From: Streptomyces venezuelae
GTDB taxonomy: Bacteria; Actinomycetota; Actinomycetes; Streptomycetales; Streptomycetaceae
DNA: 64,000 nt
Assembly: GCF_008642335.1 (NCBI RefSeq)
Contig: NZ_CP029191.1
Location: 3,534,001-3,598,000 of the forward strand
Reading direction: 5' to 3'
The notes under the pieces are model-generated. The model saw only the letters and a program-made list of their open reading frames with translations, was not told the origin of the DNA and did not search any database. Of the stretch, positions 10,529 through 17,592 are shown in pieces; positions within the stretch are counted from its first letter, which is position 1; the number at the start of each line of letters is the position of its first letter. The position numbers and the translations under genes are program-made.

Positions 10529-10550
10529 GCCGTCCAGGATGCCCCCGCGC

Positions 10551-10600
10551 ACCCCCCAACACCCCCCAACACCCCCCAGCACCCCCCAGCACCCCCCAGC
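10551..10600. repeat. Five 10-bp C-rich tandem repeats upstream of the oxidoreductase
   Basis: Five copies of ACCCCCCARC in a row, followed by looser C-rich copies to about 10635. On the transcript strand of the neighbouring minus-strand gene this becomes runs of six G, a potential G-quadruplex in the leader, 23 nt before the start codon. Confidence 0.85.
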
Positions 10601-10727
10601 ACCCCTCACCAACCCCTCACCCCCCCACCCACTGAACACCCCGCCCGACCCCACCCCACCTGGCCCCGCCCCACCCGTTTTTTCACGATCCGGACGGGAA
10701 GATTCCCACCCCGGTCATTAACTCTCC

Positions 10728-10782: not shown

Positions 10783-12363
10783 ATGACCGCGCCAACCCCC
10801 CTAGCGCGCCCCGGGACGGAGCAACCTCCGCTGCGTCCGTCCGTGTTCGTCCTGCTGGCCAGTGCCCTGGTCACCGCGGCGCTCACCGGAGCCGCCGTCG
10901 CCCTCGCACCCACTTCCATACAGACCCCCCTGGCCTGGGGCGCGGGCGCCGCGTCCCTGGCGCTCACCGCATCGGTGACAGTGGCCTTCCACTCCACCCG
11001 CACCACCGCCCTGCTGCGCCGCCGCCTGGCCGCCGCCCACCAGGACGCCACACGCCTGATCCACGAACAGGCCGCCCGCACCGAGGAGTTCCACCGCGAG
11101 CGCACCGCCCTCACGGAGCACTTCGTCCGTGAGCGCAACGAGCTGACGGTGCGCGCCCGCGCCGCCGAGTCCGAGCGCGCCGCCGCCCTCGCCGCCAGCG
11201 CCAACGCCGCGGGCCGCATGCAGGCCCTGGCCACCGGCATGCTCGCCGACCTCCGCGAGATGGAGGGCAGGCACGCCGACGAGGACGTCCTCACCGACCT
11301 CCTCCACCTCGACCACAGGACCGCGCAGGCCGGCCGCATCGCCGACTCCGTGGCCGTCCTCACCGGCGCCCGCTCGGGCCGCCGCTGGGCCCGCCCCATC
11401 GTCATGGAGTCGATCCTGCGCGGCGCGATGGGCCGCATCGGCGGCTACCAGCGCGTGCGCGTCCACTCGGCCAGCGAGGTCGCCGTGGCGGGCCACGCCG
11501 CCGAGGGCGTCATGCACGCCCTCGCCGAACTCCTCGACAACGCTGCCAACTTCTCGCCGCCCACCTCCGAAGTGCACGTCTACATCGAGGAAGTCGCGGC
11601 CGGCGTCATCATCTCCGTAGAGGACAGCGGCCTGGTGATGGGCCCCGTGCAGCAGCGCCGGGCCGAACAGGCGGTCTCCGGCGAGACCAAGGGCCTCGCC
11701 GGTCTCTCCGGCACGCGACTCGGTCTCGCGGTGGTCGGCAGGCTGGCCCGCAAGCACGGCCTGACGGTGTCGTTCCGCCCCTCGGCGAGAGGCGGCACGG
11801 GCGTACTCCTCCTGATCCCCCAGGAGTTGCTCACCCGCCCCTCGGAGACGACAACGGCCCCGCCCCCGGTCCCGGCATCCCTGACGGCAGCGTCGTCCAC
11901 GACGACAGCGGCACTCCCACCGGCCGCCACCACCGCGTCGCCCGCACCCGCGAACGCACGGGAGGGGACGCGGGGGGATGTGCGCACGGAGCACCGAGCG
12001 GACCCGGGCGTCCAGGAACTTCCGACGCGGCGCAGGGATGGCGAGTACGCACATCCCCCCGTGGCCCCGTCCCCACGGACGGACCCCGGGCGCACGGCCG
12101 AAGCCACCCCCGACGCCCCCCTCCCCAAGCGCCCCCGAGGCCGCACCCTCGCCGCGGCGGAACGCGCCCGCGCGGACAGCGACACGGGAGAGACCCGGCG
12201 CCCCCGCGCCGCCACCGCCGCGGACACCGCGGCCCGCTTCAGCAGCTTCCGCCAGGCAGTCCGCACCACGCCCACGGACCCTTCGGCCCCGTCCGAAGAC
12301 CTGGACGTGAGCCCGGACGCCACCGCAACCCCCTCGCACCCGGAAGGCGACACCCCCCGATGA
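10783..12363 (+). CDS. cvnA: Conservon sensor ATPase CvnA (histidine-kinase-like)
   Basis: A 526-residue membrane protein. Two hydrophobic helices (about 20-42 and 48-70) are followed by a long coiled coil (about 75-150), then a GHKL ATP-binding domain with N box ELLDNAANFSP and G1 region EDSGLVMG. The Pro/Thr-rich tail of over 150 residues is low in complexity. No phosphoacceptor H box is visible, as is usual for CvnA. In conservons CvnA is thought to act as the membrane input of a GTPase switch. ATG at 10783 has GAGGA 9 nt upstream; an in-frame TTG directly precedes it. It overlaps cvnB by ATGA. Confidence 0.92.
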   Translation: MTAPTPLARPGTEQPPLRPSVFVLLASALVTAALTGAAVALAPTSIQTPLAWGAGAASLALTASVTVAFHSTRTTALLRRRLAAAHQDATRLIHEQAARTEEFHRERTALTEHFVRERNELTVRARAAESERAAALAASANAAGRMQALATGMLADLREMEGRHADEDVLTDLLHLDHRTAQAGRIADSVAVLTGARSGRRWARPIVMESILRGAMGRIGGYQRVRVHSASEVAVAGHAAEGVMHALAELLDNAANFSPPTSEVHVYIEEVAAGVIISVEDSGLVMGPVQQRRAEQAVSGETKGLAGLSGTRLGLAVVGRLARKHGLTVSFRPSARGGTGVLLLIPQELLTRPSETTTAPPPVPASLTAASSTTTAALPPAATTASPAPANAREGTRGDVRTEHRADPGVQELPTRRRDGEYAHPPVAPSPRTDPGRTAEATPDAPLPKRPRGRTLAAAERARADSDTGETRRPRAATAADTAARFSSFRQAVRTTPTDPSAPSEDLDVSPDATATPSHPEGDTPR

Positions 12364-12857
12364 CCAACGGCACCACCGGCACCACTGGCACCACCGACAC
12401 CACCACTGGCACCACCCCCGCCGCCACCCCCGGCACCACCACCGACGCCAAGCTCACCTGGCTCCTGCAAGGCCTCCTGGAGCGCACCCCCGGCGCACGC
12501 CACGCCCTGGTGCTCTCCCGTGACGGCCTGAAGCTCTGCCGCACCCCCGAACTCTCCGTCGACCAGGCCGACCAGCTCGCCGCGATAGCCGCCGGCATCC
12601 AGTCCCTGTCGCACGGCGCCTCCGCCGAGTTCGGCGACGGCAGCGGCGGGGTCCGCTCGGCGATGGCCGAGTTCTACGGCGGCATCCTCTTCATCGTCGA
12701 GGCCGGCGAGGGCGCGCACCTCGCGGTCATCGCCGCCGAGGACGCCGACGCGGGACTCGTCGGCCACACCATGGCCGAGCTCGTGGAGCAGCTCGGCGAG
12801 CACCTGCGCGCCGCGCCCCGCGCCGACGGCGGCCCCCACACGCTGCCCGCCTCATGA
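12360..12857 (+). CDS. cvnB: Conservon Roadblock/LC7 protein CvnB
   Basis: A 165-residue cytoplasmic protein. After a low-complexity N-terminus of Thr/Gly repeats (residues 1-28) comes a Roadblock/LC7 fold (LTWLLQGLLERTPGARHALV, LVLSRDGLKLCR, GILFIVEAGEGAHLAVIA). Roadblock proteins in bacteria, such as MglB, regulate small GTPases, and in conservons CvnB is expected to act on CvnD. Its ATG overlaps the cvnA stop and its stop overlaps the cvnC start. The Thr/Gly repeats are absent from the core fold and probably vary between strains. Confidence 0.92.
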   Translation: MTNGTTGTTGTTDTTTGTTPAATPGTTTDAKLTWLLQGLLERTPGARHALVLSRDGLKLCRTPELSVDQADQLAAIAAGIQSLSHGASAEFGDGSGGVRSAMAEFYGGILFIVEAGEGAHLAVIAAEDADAGLVGHTMAELVEQLGEHLRAAPRADGGPHTLPAS

Positions 12858-13210
12858 GCCGCCCCGGCCGGGACGACTCCCCCGACCGGCTGTACACCCT
12901 CACCGGAGGACGCAGCCGGTCGGCGCCCGACGCCCCCTTCGACCTGGTGACCCTCGTCGTCGCCGAGTCCGGCCCGGTGCCGGGCATGCAGTCCGAACAC
13001 GCCGCGATCCTGCGCCTGTGCCACCTGCCGACCGCCACGGTGGAGATCGCCGCAGAGCTCGGCCTGCCGGTGAGCATCACCCGCATCCTGCTGTCCGACC
13101 TGCTCGACGCGGGCCGGATCAGCGCCCGCCACCCGCGCGCGGCCGCCGACCACAGCCTTCCCGACCCCGACATCCTGGAGCAGGTGCTCGTTGGACTCCG
13201 CAACCTCTGA
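12854..13210 (+). CDS. cvnC: Conservon DUF742 protein CvnC
   Basis: A 118-residue DUF742 protein with the family opening RLYTLTGGRS and the winged-helix-like segment ILRLCHLPTATVEIAAELGLP, then VSITRILLSDLLDAGRI. Function is unproven; interaction with CvnD and CvnB has been proposed for the family. It starts in an ATGA overlap with cvnB, and its last 20 bases overlap the start of cvnD, so the four genes are translated as one coupled unit. Confidence 0.92.
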   Translation: MSRPGRDDSPDRLYTLTGGRSRSAPDAPFDLVTLVVAESGPVPGMQSEHAAILRLCHLPTATVEIAAELGLPVSITRILLSDLLDAGRISARHPRAAADHSLPDPDILEQVLVGLRNL

Positions 13211-13850
13211 ACGCAGCGCTACCGGCACCACTCGACCCGGCACCACTCGAACCGAGCTGACCGCGACCGCCGACAACGGTCTGAAGATCGTCGTGGTCGG
13301 CGGCTTCGGCGTCGGCAAGACGACGCTGGTCCGCTCCGTCAGCGAGATCCGTCCCCTCAACACCGAGGAGACGATGACGCAGGCCGGTCGGGGCATCGAC
13401 GAGACGGGCGGCCTCGAAGGCCTCGCCGGCAAGACGTCCACGACCGTCGCCTTCGACTTCGGCCGCATCACGCTCGACGCGCACAACATCCTCTACCTGT
13501 TCGGCGCCCCCGGCCAGGAACGCTTCTGGTTCCTGTGGGACCGCCTCTTCTCCGGCACGCTCGGCGCGGTCGTCCTCGTCGACACCCGCCGCCTGGAGGA
13601 CTCCTGGTACGCGATCGACCGCCTGGAGCACCACGGCACGCCGTTCATCGTGGCCCGCAACGACTTCGGCAACGGCGCGCACACCGCGGAGCAGCTGCGC
13701 GAGGCGCTCGACCTCGACCCGGGCGTGCCGCTCGTCGACTGCGACGCCCGCTCGCGCGAGTCCAGCAAGAACGTGCTGATCACGCTCGTCGAACACCTCC
13801 AGTCGCTGTACGCAGCCCAGCGCAACGCCCTTCAGGAGACCCCCCAGTGA
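13191..13850 (+). CDS. cvnD: Conservon small GTPase CvnD
   Basis: A 219-residue Ras-like GTPase. G1 is GGFGVGKT (37-44), switch II is FGAPGQERF instead of the usual DxxGQ, and the G4 position reads ARNDF rather than NKxD. These departures are typical of conservon GTPases. Start is a TTG at 13191 inside cvnC with GGAG 10 nt upstream; the N-terminal 25 residues are a Thr-rich tail. The stop overlaps the first P450 gene by GTGA. It is expected to cycle between GDP and GTP under control of CvnB, and to signal to the P450s or other partners. Confidence 0.92.
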   Translation: MDSATSERSATGTTRPGTTRTELTATADNGLKIVVVGGFGVGKTTLVRSVSEIRPLNTEETMTQAGRGIDETGGLEGLAGKTSTTVAFDFGRITLDAHNILYLFGAPGQERFWFLWDRLFSGTLGAVVLVDTRRLEDSWYAIDRLEHHGTPFIVARNDFGNGAHTAEQLREALDLDPGVPLVDCDARSRESSKNVLITLVEHLQSLYAAQRNALQETPQ

Positions 13851-15115
13851 CCTGCCCCGTGACCGGCGCCGGTGCCGGCGCCGCGCCCGTACCGCTCTCC
13901 GGACCGCGGTTCGCCACCGAACCCACCCAGCTGTACCGGGAGATGCGCCGCGACCACGGCCCCGTCGCCCCTGTCCTGCTCGACGGCGACATACCGGCCT
14001 GGCTGGTCCTCGGCTACCGCGAACTGCACCAGGTCACCGCCGACCCGGTCCTCTACAGCCGCGACTCCGAGCTGTGGAACCAGTGGCCGAACATCCCCGC
14101 CGACTGGCCGCTGCTCCCGATGATCGGCCACAAGCAGCCGTCGATCCTCTACACCGTCGGCGAGCGGCACACCCGGCGGGCCGCGATGATCGCGCACGCA
14201 CTCGAAGCGGTGGACCCCTTCGAACTCAAGGCACACGCCGAGCAGTTCGCCGACGAGCTCATCGACCGCTTCTGCGGCAAGGGCACCACGGACATCGTCG
14301 CCGAGTACGCGATGCTGCTCCCGGTCCGCGTCCTCGCCCGCATCTACGGCTTCTCCGACGAGCAGGGCCCCGGCCTCGTCACCGCCATGAACGACATGAT
14401 CGACGGCCGCGAGCGGGCCCTGGCGGGCGCGCAGCACCTGGGCGAGTCGATGGCGCGGCTCATCGCCGACAAGCACGTGCGGCCGGGCGCGGACGTCGCC
14501 TCGTACATGCTGGAGACGCAGGCGGCCGACGGCGCCGACGGGTTCACGGATGAGGAGATCGCCCAGGACCTGATGGTGATGATGGCGGCGGGCCACCAGC
14601 CGACCGCCGACTGGATCGGCAACTCGCTGCGCCTGATGCTCACCGACGACCGGTTCGCCGCGTCCCTGTTCGGCGGCCGGCACAGCGTCGCGGAGGCCAT
14701 GAACGAGGTCCTGTGGGAGGACACCCCGACGCAGAACGTCGCCGGGCGCTGGGCGTCGCGCGACACGCAGCTGGGCGGCCGCCGCATCAACTCCGGCGAC
14801 CTGCTGCTCCTCGGCCTGGCCGCGGCCAACGCCGACCCGCAGGTCCGCACCGACGGCTCCGCGCTGACCGGCGGCAACAGCGCCCACTTCTCGTTCGGCC
14901 ACGGAGAGCACCGCTGCCCCTTCCCGGCGCAGGAGGTCGCCGAGGTCATCGCGCGGACCGGCATCGAGGTCATCCTCGACCGGCTGCCCGACCTCGACCT
15001 CGCCGTACCGGCCGACGCCCTGAGCCGCCGCCCTTCGCCCTGGCTGCGCGGCCTGACCGATCTTCCGGTGAGCTTCACCCCGACCCCGACCTCAGCCTTT
15101 GGAGACCCCAGATGA
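13847..15115 (+). CDS. CYP157-like cytochrome P450 lacking the ExxR arginine
   Basis: A 422-residue P450 fold. The I helix reads AAGHQPTADW (AGHQPT at 248-253 in place of AGxxT). The K helix reads AMNEVLWED: Glu287 is kept but the invariant Arg is Trp290. The heme loop is FGHGEHRCPF with Cys357 kept and the usual following Gly replaced by Phe359. These changes match the CYP157 family, known in Streptomyces for lacking ExxR and for sitting beside a CYP154 gene in conservons. It may be a poor oxygenase or a structural partner. GTG at 13847 has AGGAGA 8 nt upstream. It overlaps cvnD and the next P450 by four bases each. Confidence 0.88.
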   Translation: MTCPVTGAGAGAAPVPLSGPRFATEPTQLYREMRRDHGPVAPVLLDGDIPAWLVLGYRELHQVTADPVLYSRDSELWNQWPNIPADWPLLPMIGHKQPSILYTVGERHTRRAAMIAHALEAVDPFELKAHAEQFADELIDRFCGKGTTDIVAEYAMLLPVRVLARIYGFSDEQGPGLVTAMNDMIDGRERALAGAQHLGESMARLIADKHVRPGADVASYMLETQAADGADGFTDEEIAQDLMVMMAAGHQPTADWIGNSLRLMLTDDRFAASLFGGRHSVAEAMNEVLWEDTPTQNVAGRWASRDTQLGGRRINSGDLLLLGLAAANADPQVRTDGSALTGGNSAHFSFGHGEHRCPFPAQEVAEVIARTGIEVILDRLPDLDLAVPADALSRRPSPWLRGLTDLPVSFTPTPTSAFGDPR

Positions 15116-16326
15116 CGCGTATCGCCCTGGATCCGTTCGTCACCGACCTCGACGGCGAGAGCGCACGGCTGCGCGCGGCGGGCCCGCTCGCCGAGGCGGA
15201 GCTGCCGGGCGGCGTACCGGTGTGGGCGGTCACGCACCACGCGGAGGCCCGGCAACTCCTCACCGACAAGCGCCTGGTGAAGGACATCGAGGTCTGGGGC
15301 GCGTGGCAGCGCGGCGAGATACCCGCCGACTGGCCACTGATCGGCCTCGCCAACCCCGGCCGCTCCATGCTGACGGTCGACGGCGAGGAGCACCGCAGGA
15401 TGCGCACGCTGGTGGCGCAGGCGCTGACGCCGCGGCGCGTGGAGCGGATGCGCGACCGCATCGCGGAACTGACGGCGACGCTCCTCGACAAACTCCCCGA
15501 GGGCCCGGACCCCGTCGACCTGAAGGCGGAGTTCGCGTACCCCCTCCCCATGTACGTCATCAGTGACCTGATGGGCATCGACGAGGCGGACCACCCGCGC
15601 CTGAAGGTCCTCTTCGACAAGTTCTTCTCGACGCAGACGCCTCCGGAGGAGGTCGTGGCGACGCTCGGTGAGCTCGCCGAGATGATGGGCAAGGTCGTCG
15701 CGGCGCGCCGCGCGGAGCCCGGCGACGACCTCACCAGCGCGCTGATCCTGGCCTCCGAGGACGGCGACCACCTCACGGACGCGGAGATCCTCTCCACGCT
15801 CCAGCTGATGGTCGCGGCCGGCCACGAGACGACGATCTCCCTGATCGTCAACGCGGTGGTGAACCTCTCCGCCCACCCCGACCAACTCGCTCTGGTCCTC
15901 TCCGGCGAGGTCGGCTGGGACGCGGTCATCGAGGAGACCCTGCGCTACGCGACCCCCACCTCGCACGTCCTGATCCGCTTCGCCGCGGAGGACGTCCCCG
16001 TCGGGGACAAGGTGATCGCCAAGGGTGACGCGCTGATCGTCTCGTACGGCGCGATAGGCCGCGACGAGCGGGCCCACGGTCCCACGGCGGACTCGTTCGA
16101 CATCACGCGCACGTCGCCGACCCGCCACATCTCGTTCGGCCACGGCCCGCACGTGTGCCCCGGCGCGGCGCTCTCCCGCCTGGAGGCGGGCGTGGCCCTC
16201 CCGGCCCTCTACACCCGCTACCCGAACCTGACCCTGGCGGTCCCGCGCGAGGCACTCCGCAACAAGCCGGTGGTGACCCAGAACGATTTGTACGACCTGC
16301 CGGTGCAACTGGGAGCAAAAGCTTGA
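15112..16326 (+). CDS. CYP154-like cytochrome P450
   Basis: A 404-residue P450 with all standard motifs: I helix AAGHETT (235-241), K helix EETLR with E275 and R278, heme loop FGHGPHVCPG with Cys349. Such enzymes oxidise small hydrophobic substrates using ferredoxin electrons; no ferredoxin gene is next to it. Order and overlap (ATGA at 15112-15115) make it the last gene of the conservon. CYP154 members in Streptomyces hydroxylate steroids or macrolides in vitro, but the natural substrate of conservon P450s is not known. A GGAG stands 8 nt before the start. Confidence 0.9.
   Translation: MTRIALDPFVTDLDGESARLRAAGPLAEAELPGGVPVWAVTHHAEARQLLTDKRLVKDIEVWGAWQRGEIPADWPLIGLANPGRSMLTVDGEEHRRMRTLVAQALTPRRVERMRDRIAELTATLLDKLPEGPDPVDLKAEFAYPLPMYVISDLMGIDEADHPRLKVLFDKFFSTQTPPEEVVATLGELAEMMGKVVAARRAEPGDDLTSALILASEDGDHLTDAEILSTLQLMVAAGHETTISLIVNAVVNLSAHPDQLALVLSGEVGWDAVIEETLRYATPTSHVLIRFAAEDVPVGDKVIAKGDALIVSYGAIGRDERAHGPTADSFDITRTSPTRHISFGHGPHVCPGAALSRLEAGVALPALYTRYPNLTLAVPREALRNKPVVTQNDLYDLPVQLGAKA

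Positions 16327-16461: not shown

Positions 16462-17592
<1,131 letters not shown>

Follow-up and report, generated by a model that had tools for sequence, protein, structure and literature searches.

The window analysed here is a stretch of 64,000 nucleotides from Streptomyces venezuelae (contig NZ_CP029191.1), and all coordinates are given as positions within it. At 10783-16326 it carries a conservon (cvnA-B-C-D) and two cytochrome P450 (P450) genes, termed P450-1 and P450-2, all on the + strand (Table 1). From its position and from family knowledge we take the window CvnD to be the conservon small GTPase. The cvnD and P450-1 genes overlap by four bases, GTGA at 13847, and the two P450 genes overlap by ATGA at 15112. 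Both overlaps had been described in an earlier sequence-only reading of this DNA.

P450-1 lacks both arginines of the ERR triad, in the K-helix and in the meander, while Glu287 is kept. The proton-delivery pair of the I-helix is gone as well. The haem cysteine and the other haem-anchoring residues are retained under purifying selection. The sequence-only reading had seen Glu287 and Trp290 correctly and had noted Phe359 in place of the haem-loop Gly; this residue is indeed present, at Cys+2 and not directly after the Cys. The Pfam p450 profile matches P450-1 weakly (20.3 bits vs a cut-off of 22.8) and P450-2 strongly. The AlphaFold model of P450-1 has a mean predicted local distance difference test score (pLDDT) of 75.6. 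The Foldseek matches listed for this model are P450 structures with 1gwi first, and no entry named CYP157 is found among the 60 solved-structure matches listed. P450-1 is assigned here to the CYP157 class, with a putative subfamily that comes from the motif only. In P450-2 the motifs are canonical (EETLR, CPG, AAGHETT), as the earlier reading had it. Membership of CYP157 calls for more than 40% identity to a named member, and that of a subfamily such as CYP154C for at least 55%. P450-2 is identical to CYP154C1 (PDB 1gwi) in 330/400 positions (82.5%) and shares its EXXR, CXG and ETT with no notable difference found; by identity, EXXR and CXG it is a CYP154C P450. Compared with six relatives, P450-1 has a ratio of nonsynonymous to synonymous substitution rates (dN/dS) of 0.13-0.28 and P450-2 one of 0.16-0.28, which indicates purifying selection on both.

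Table 1. Genes of the conservon operon and sequence features of P450-1 in the window.
Feature	Position	Strand	Remarks
cvnA	10783..12363	+	histidine-kinase-like; HATPase_c (Pfam); without NIT sensor domain
cvnB	12360..12857	+	Roadblock/LC7 protein; Pfam Robl_LC7
cvnC	12854..13210	+	DUF742 protein (Pfam)
cvnD	13191..13850	+	TTG start; 20-base overlap with cvnC; Pfam match ATP_bind_1
cvnE (P450-1), CYP157-class without EXXR	13847..15115	+	GTG start; 422 aa
I-helix AAGHQPTA, residues 247-254	14585..14608	+	Q-P in place of the acid-alcohol pair
K-helix E287-V-L-W290 (codons GAG GTC CTG TGG)	14705..14716	+	Trp at the usual P450 Arg position
shortened meander, residues 330-350	14834..14896	+	FDxxR arginine absent
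haem loop C357-P-F359	14915..14923	+	Cys present; bulky residue instead of the usual Gly
P450-2, canonical CYP154C-type	15112..16326	+	404 aa; 82.5% identity to CYP154C1 (PDB 1gwi)

Matches to P450-1 are found in 288/293 genomes of the order at E<=1e-40, a threshold at which CYP154s match too, as they do in the genome of the window, and in 92/394 genomes drawn from the class at E<=1e-45. Our sample consists of 180 regions around such matches, 20 more and the window, in total 201 regions with 319 aligned P450s; as the loci were picked by CYP157 match, it contains CYP157 by construction. Among the named close relatives the gene is readable in 79/80 (in the eightieth, L298, the contig stops inside it), and both the W and CPF are present in 79/79. 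The same residues in these relatives show that the missing Arg is due neither to chance nor to a sequencing error. At the CvnD stop the overlap GTGA/ATGA is found in 77/78 named loci. ATGA at the P450-1 stop is found in only 53/79, and the proposal that the proteins are made in fixed ratio, drawn from the overlaps only, is not supported. P450s located directly behind a conservon gene number 161 (154 behind CvnD, 6 behind CvnC, 1 behind CvnB), and every one is CYP157-class. Their Arg column reads W156 K3 Y1 F1 and the haem Cys is invariant (161/161). The Glu column reads E115 Q29 D8 L4 R3 A1 T1, a count that depends on the alignment, as EQxLW members carry the Glu one residue earlier. A bulky F, Y, H or W occupies Cys+2 in 116/161. 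Over the whole CYP157 class the haem Cys is present in 205/205 rows and the meander F[D/N]xxR in 0/205, vs 110/114 for the meander motif in canonical P450s. The canonical rows (n=114) have E and R in 114/114, ETT in 114/114 and Cys in 113/114 (one gap), and in the named loci every canonical P450 of full length has the K-helix Arg (78/78). Cluster-weighted conservation within the CYP157 class is high for C357 (1.00), G353 (1.00), H108 (0.96) and H355 (0.91), and low for E251 (0.27) and T252 (0.26); for Arg in position 290 it is near 0. On a FastTree tree built without the motif columns, 4 changes fall in the Arg column and 15 in the Glu column. An N-terminal Cys-Pro was considered as a haem-regulatory motif and dropped as too patchy, with Cys in 95/205 CYP157-class rows; starts of this type are common in bacterial P450s.

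As a check on selection bias, conservons were also picked by DUF742, the CvnC domain, giving 104 loci in 11 genomes with 1.5 kb on each side; these genomes themselves came from genomes with P450-1 matches. A CYP157-class P450 lies right behind CvnD in 25 loci, most of which are also among the 161, and CvnD without an adjacent P450 is found in 65 + 3. A canonical P450 directly behind CvnD is found in 0/104. Only CvnC is recognised in 7 of the remaining loci and no CvnC in 3; in one more, L416, CvnD is not seen and there is a short canonical-type remnant. The Arg column is reached in 16 of the 25, with 12 W, 1 F, 1 Y and 2 R. In the genome of the window itself, a CYP157-class gene adjoins 3/10 DUF742 loci.

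The neighbour on the other side of CYP157 varies. Behind the 161 conservon CYP157s we find a same-strand canonical P450 in 74, a convergent canonical P450 in 17, a second CYP157 in 8 and none close in 62 (59 with none in the examined region, 3 with one farther off). The canonical CYP154C P450 is therefore an optional, exchangeable kind of neighbour, and the two-P450 unit proposed by the sequence-only reading is not obligate. In L160, L170, L172, L174, L176 and L177 the same-strand CYP154 is replaced by a convergent canonical P450, 14-139 bases behind CYP157 as measured from matched part to matched part. The same distances hold for the convergent canonical P450s of L179, L184-L187, L191, L195-L197 and L204. 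These convergent P450s are perhaps one family (profile scores 380-397). Tandem CYP157-class pairs behind one conservon, with no canonical P450 seen in the examined region, are found in L203, L209, L212, L214, L215, L217, L218 and L219.

The NIT domain (Pfam) is found in 0/3 own-genome CvnAs that adjoin CYP157 and in 5/6 without it. For 157 CvnAs adjoining CYP157, at least 2 membrane helices are predicted in 114, and the loops between them span 0-20 residues in 113/114; among CvnAs that have two helices but no CYP157, the loops are 278-300 residues long in 6/8. The other 43/157 gave fewer than two helices, the window CvnA included, where the hydropathy scan finds one helix and a second close by was read by eye. 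In seven loci (L116, L120, L123, L124, L125, L130, L135) CvnD is not recognised though CYP157 is directly behind conservon genes. CvnA-B-C precede CYP157 in five of them; L120 has B-C there, where its contig begins, and L135 has A-B. At this position the GTPase system has no recognisable GTPase. CYP157 is under purifying selection in six of the seven (pairwise dN/dS 0.19-0.35). The persistence of CYP157 behind CvnA-B-C without CvnD argues against CvnD as a needed partner, with CvnA, B or C as the remaining candidates. The next gene in the window, at 16474, is presumably a serC-like gene, a name taken from reading its sequence only. Over the 201 regions serC is found in 40, always behind CYP157 and on the same strand (40/40); both P450s are present in 31 of these, CYP157 alone in 5 and CYP157 without CvnD in 4. 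The latter arrangement, serC behind CYP157 as in the window, thus covers 4/7 CvnD-less loci. In 28 of 30 genomes chosen for having no close CYP157, no conservon gene lies 1.5 kb or less from serC. The other two (L441, L443) have CvnD at such a distance and on the strand of serC, and no DUF742 is found near it there, where other genomes have a whole conservon.

P450-1 belongs to the known CYP157 family. The missing EXXR of conservon-linked CYP157 was published in 2006 (Rupasinghe et al., FEBS Lett 580:6338, cited in PMC3599690). PMC3599690 gives EVLW for CYP157A and EQ(S/I)LW for CYP157C, and links CYP157 genes to conservons upstream. P450-1 shares with this family the EVLW of CYP157A, the haem Cys and the place behind a conservon; no feature was found that sets it apart. 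CYP157 is present in 48/48 Streptomyces studied in PMC6408508 and in the majority of 203 in PMC7369989, and the CYP157/CYP154 pairing in Streptomyces conservons had been correctly named by the sequence-only reading. In S. coelicolor, conservons 9-12 carry P450 (cvnE) genes (PMC8510531). According to PMC13343842, CvnE and CvnF overwhelmingly accompany CvnA proteins without sensory domains, CvnF8 binds and stimulates CvnA8, and CvnE11 is modelled on the HATPase domains of CvnA11. The window resembles these cvn9-12 type conservons in its cvnA-B-C-D order, in the P450 that comes next and in a CvnA without a sensor domain (PMC13343842, PMC8510531). It differs by having two P450s, whereas PMC13343842 refers to a fifth accessory gene; the available main text of that paper has no 'CYP'. 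CvnF proteins are also encoded by a fifth gene where CvnA has no sensor domain, but have a GAF fold and no P450. Conservon P450s are mentioned in PMC9739842 and PMC2374992, with no role assigned in the available parts, and nothing was found in the accessible portions of the open-licence literature on CYP157/CYP154 and conservon P450s/GTPases that decides what the pair does. The headline, a CYP157 without EXXR and a CvnE with a sensor-less CvnA, is thus already known. New here are the loss of the meander arginine, with the I-helix acid and the Cys+2 Gly usually gone and the haem anchors kept, the optional nature of the canonical partner, and CYP157 behind CvnB/C in loci without CvnD.

Our favoured reading takes CYP157 as the CvnE input subunit, haem-binding and not an ordinary monooxygenase, with CYP154 tuning the sensed molecule; we hold it tentatively, at slightly below an even chance. 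By comparison with relatives, CYP157 would be a haem-keeping, probably non-catalytic sensor or adaptor. It would bind haem and a small molecule without ordinary monooxygenase turnover, and would act as a signalling input subunit via CvnA-B-C. Occupancy of its haem or pocket would change the CvnA output, and the CYP154 partner may make or remove the sensed molecule or its antagonist. By analogy with CvnF8 on CvnA8, CYP157 may act on CvnA, B or C. As the window CvnA has no NIT sensor domain, sensing more likely lies with the P450 than with CvnA. The earlier description of a membrane sensor is doubtful on this ground, and the available text of PMC13343842 suggests that CvnE proteins sense. That the first P450 is conserved and possibly regulatory within the conservon, as was also proposed, is supported by the relatives. 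A sensor-less kinase, an arginine-stripped P450 with its haem ligand and an optional canonical P450 probably fit an input module. A wider version is conceivable and, in our view, rather doubtful. Here conservon P450s would be haem-thiolate pseudoenzymes turned receptors, CYP157/CvnE would read a small molecule (or a redox/gas state) and drive CvnA, and the canonical P450 would adjust how much of this molecule is present. The loss of the two triad arginines would then mark the point where an enzyme became a receptor, and a sister lineage with His or Arg in the column (below) would preserve intermediate steps.

Several observations weigh against CYP157 as a non-catalytic input subunit. The two DUF742 loci with Arg (L486, L487; longer pieces L489/L490) pointed to a sister lineage, whose 30 best-matching loci (L489-L518) have His in the Arg column in 28 and Arg in 2. 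One CYP157 relative, L198, has Arg in this column as well. Of the 161 conservon CYP157s, 115 retain the Glu, 26 have Gly at Cys+2 and 11 an ETT I-helix. The haem loop of the P450-1 AlphaFold model is of low confidence. An own-genome CvnA, L433, is found without NIT and without an adjacent P450; a GAF accessory may be present there. For 10 CYP157-CYP154 pairs no conservon is found in about 5 kb upstream, and in an eleventh (L151) the contig stops too early. A conservon is also absent from the examined region (at least 3 kb upstream) of 13 lone CYP157s and 4 other arrangements. Because of these pairs and lone CYP157s, CYP157 is not absolutely tied to a conservon; two further lone ones, L200 and L206, have a conservon 2.9 kb upstream. 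Tree-distance coupling, computed as partial correlations, is reported as weak, as adjacent genes also share history. With all 150 operons included, CYP157 has partial r values of 0.25 (CvnB), 0.22 (CvnD), 0.19 (CvnC) and 0.11 (CvnA), the interval of the last extending to zero, so that CvnA is not preferred. When only the 73 operons that contain CYP154 are taken, the values are 0.46 (0.32-0.66) for CYP154 and 0.26 (0.11-0.49) for CvnA. In the BC loop (residues 73-93) the CYP157/CYP154 likeness is 0.36 vs 0.11 for other P450s, the highest excess except for the N-terminal window, but it is not specific to same-operon partners (permutation 0.26). The BC loop (substrate site 1) was dropped as a sign of a shared ligand, as cognate pairs show no greater likeness in this stretch than swapped ones.

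An absolute rule of 'no Arg' is rejected by L486/L487 and L198; the loss of Arg is the rule at the CvnE position and not a law. None of the CYP157-class rows tested combines a K-helix Arg with the meander motif. In the sister lineage, all 30 loci are preceded by CvnB-C-D and followed by a canonical P450, and the haem motifs are like WSAGPHACPVKQ. The meander motif pattern matched 0/30 of these loci, in a test with no canonical control. In L198 (3986-6005) the motif is EVLR, a second CYP157 fragment lies alongside and no conservon is recognised; this locus is possibly decaying.

CYP157 could instead be a helper of CYP154, in a heterodimer where an inactive P450 supports the stability or activity of its active partner, much as EryCII acts on the glycosyltransferase EryCIII. 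The overlap of the two genes, the 10 pairs without a conservon upstream, the tree coupling, which reaches its highest value (0.46) for this pair of P450s, and the canonical P450 downstream in 30/30 loci of the His/Arg lineage all speak for it. Outside the BC loop, cognate pairs are also very slightly more alike than swapped ones (0.280 vs 0.276, permutation 0.0245). However, 62/161 conservon CYP157s have no close canonical P450, which weakens an obligate CYP157-CYP154 heterodimer, and in 8 another CYP157 follows; the coupling of neighbours may reflect linkage only. EryCII/DesVIII activators (TIGR04515) resemble CYP157 in having a P450 fold minus catalytic residues beside an enzyme, but they have no haem Cys (PMC3391682, available part), which CYP157 keeps as the invariant C357. 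Kinship with these glycosyltransferase activators was rejected, P450-1 scoring 82.3 bits vs a cut-off of 343 with its haem Cys present. We consider the helper role unlikely.

Similarly improbable, in our view, is an active CYP157 enzyme, a monooxygenase or peroxygenase whose K-helix is packed in an unusual way, with Trp for Arg. The P450 fold, the haem Cys in 205/205, the kept haem-propionate residues, Arg in 2/30 of the sister lineage and the ETT I-helix in 11/161 would fit such an enzyme; the mostly missing acid-alcohol pair, the Cys+2 residue (F, Y, H or W) of 116/161 and the meander FDxxR missing in 205/205 would not. That P450-1 is a decaying gene or a sequencing error is most improbable. 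Only its unusual residues point this way, together with the relative L198, where Arg and the extra fragment may mark decay. The relatives refute it: the frame is open with no sign of a shift, the same residues recur in many separate genomes and dN/dS is 0.13-0.28.

Conservons are signalling systems with poorly known inputs. In these samples it is the arginine-less P450, not the canonical one, that directly follows the conservon core, and the canonical one comes and goes. If CYP157 holds haem, binds the Cvn core and senses a substrate or product of CYP154, the P450 fold would gain a bacterial receptor role.

Some minor observations concern the surroundings of these genes. A conservon-less CYP157-CYP154 pair lies between a glycogen phosphorylase-like gene and glgE in L143 (from 4770; Pfam), and a pair in L141 (2730-5449, - strand) is placed likewise, as read by eye. 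Two other conservon-less pairs, L132 and L148, are located elsewhere. In the window, a tandem array of about 8 copies of a 10-base C-rich unit is found upstream of cvnA at 10550-10627, and the start of cvnB (12363-12450) is repetitive and codes for Thr/Gly.

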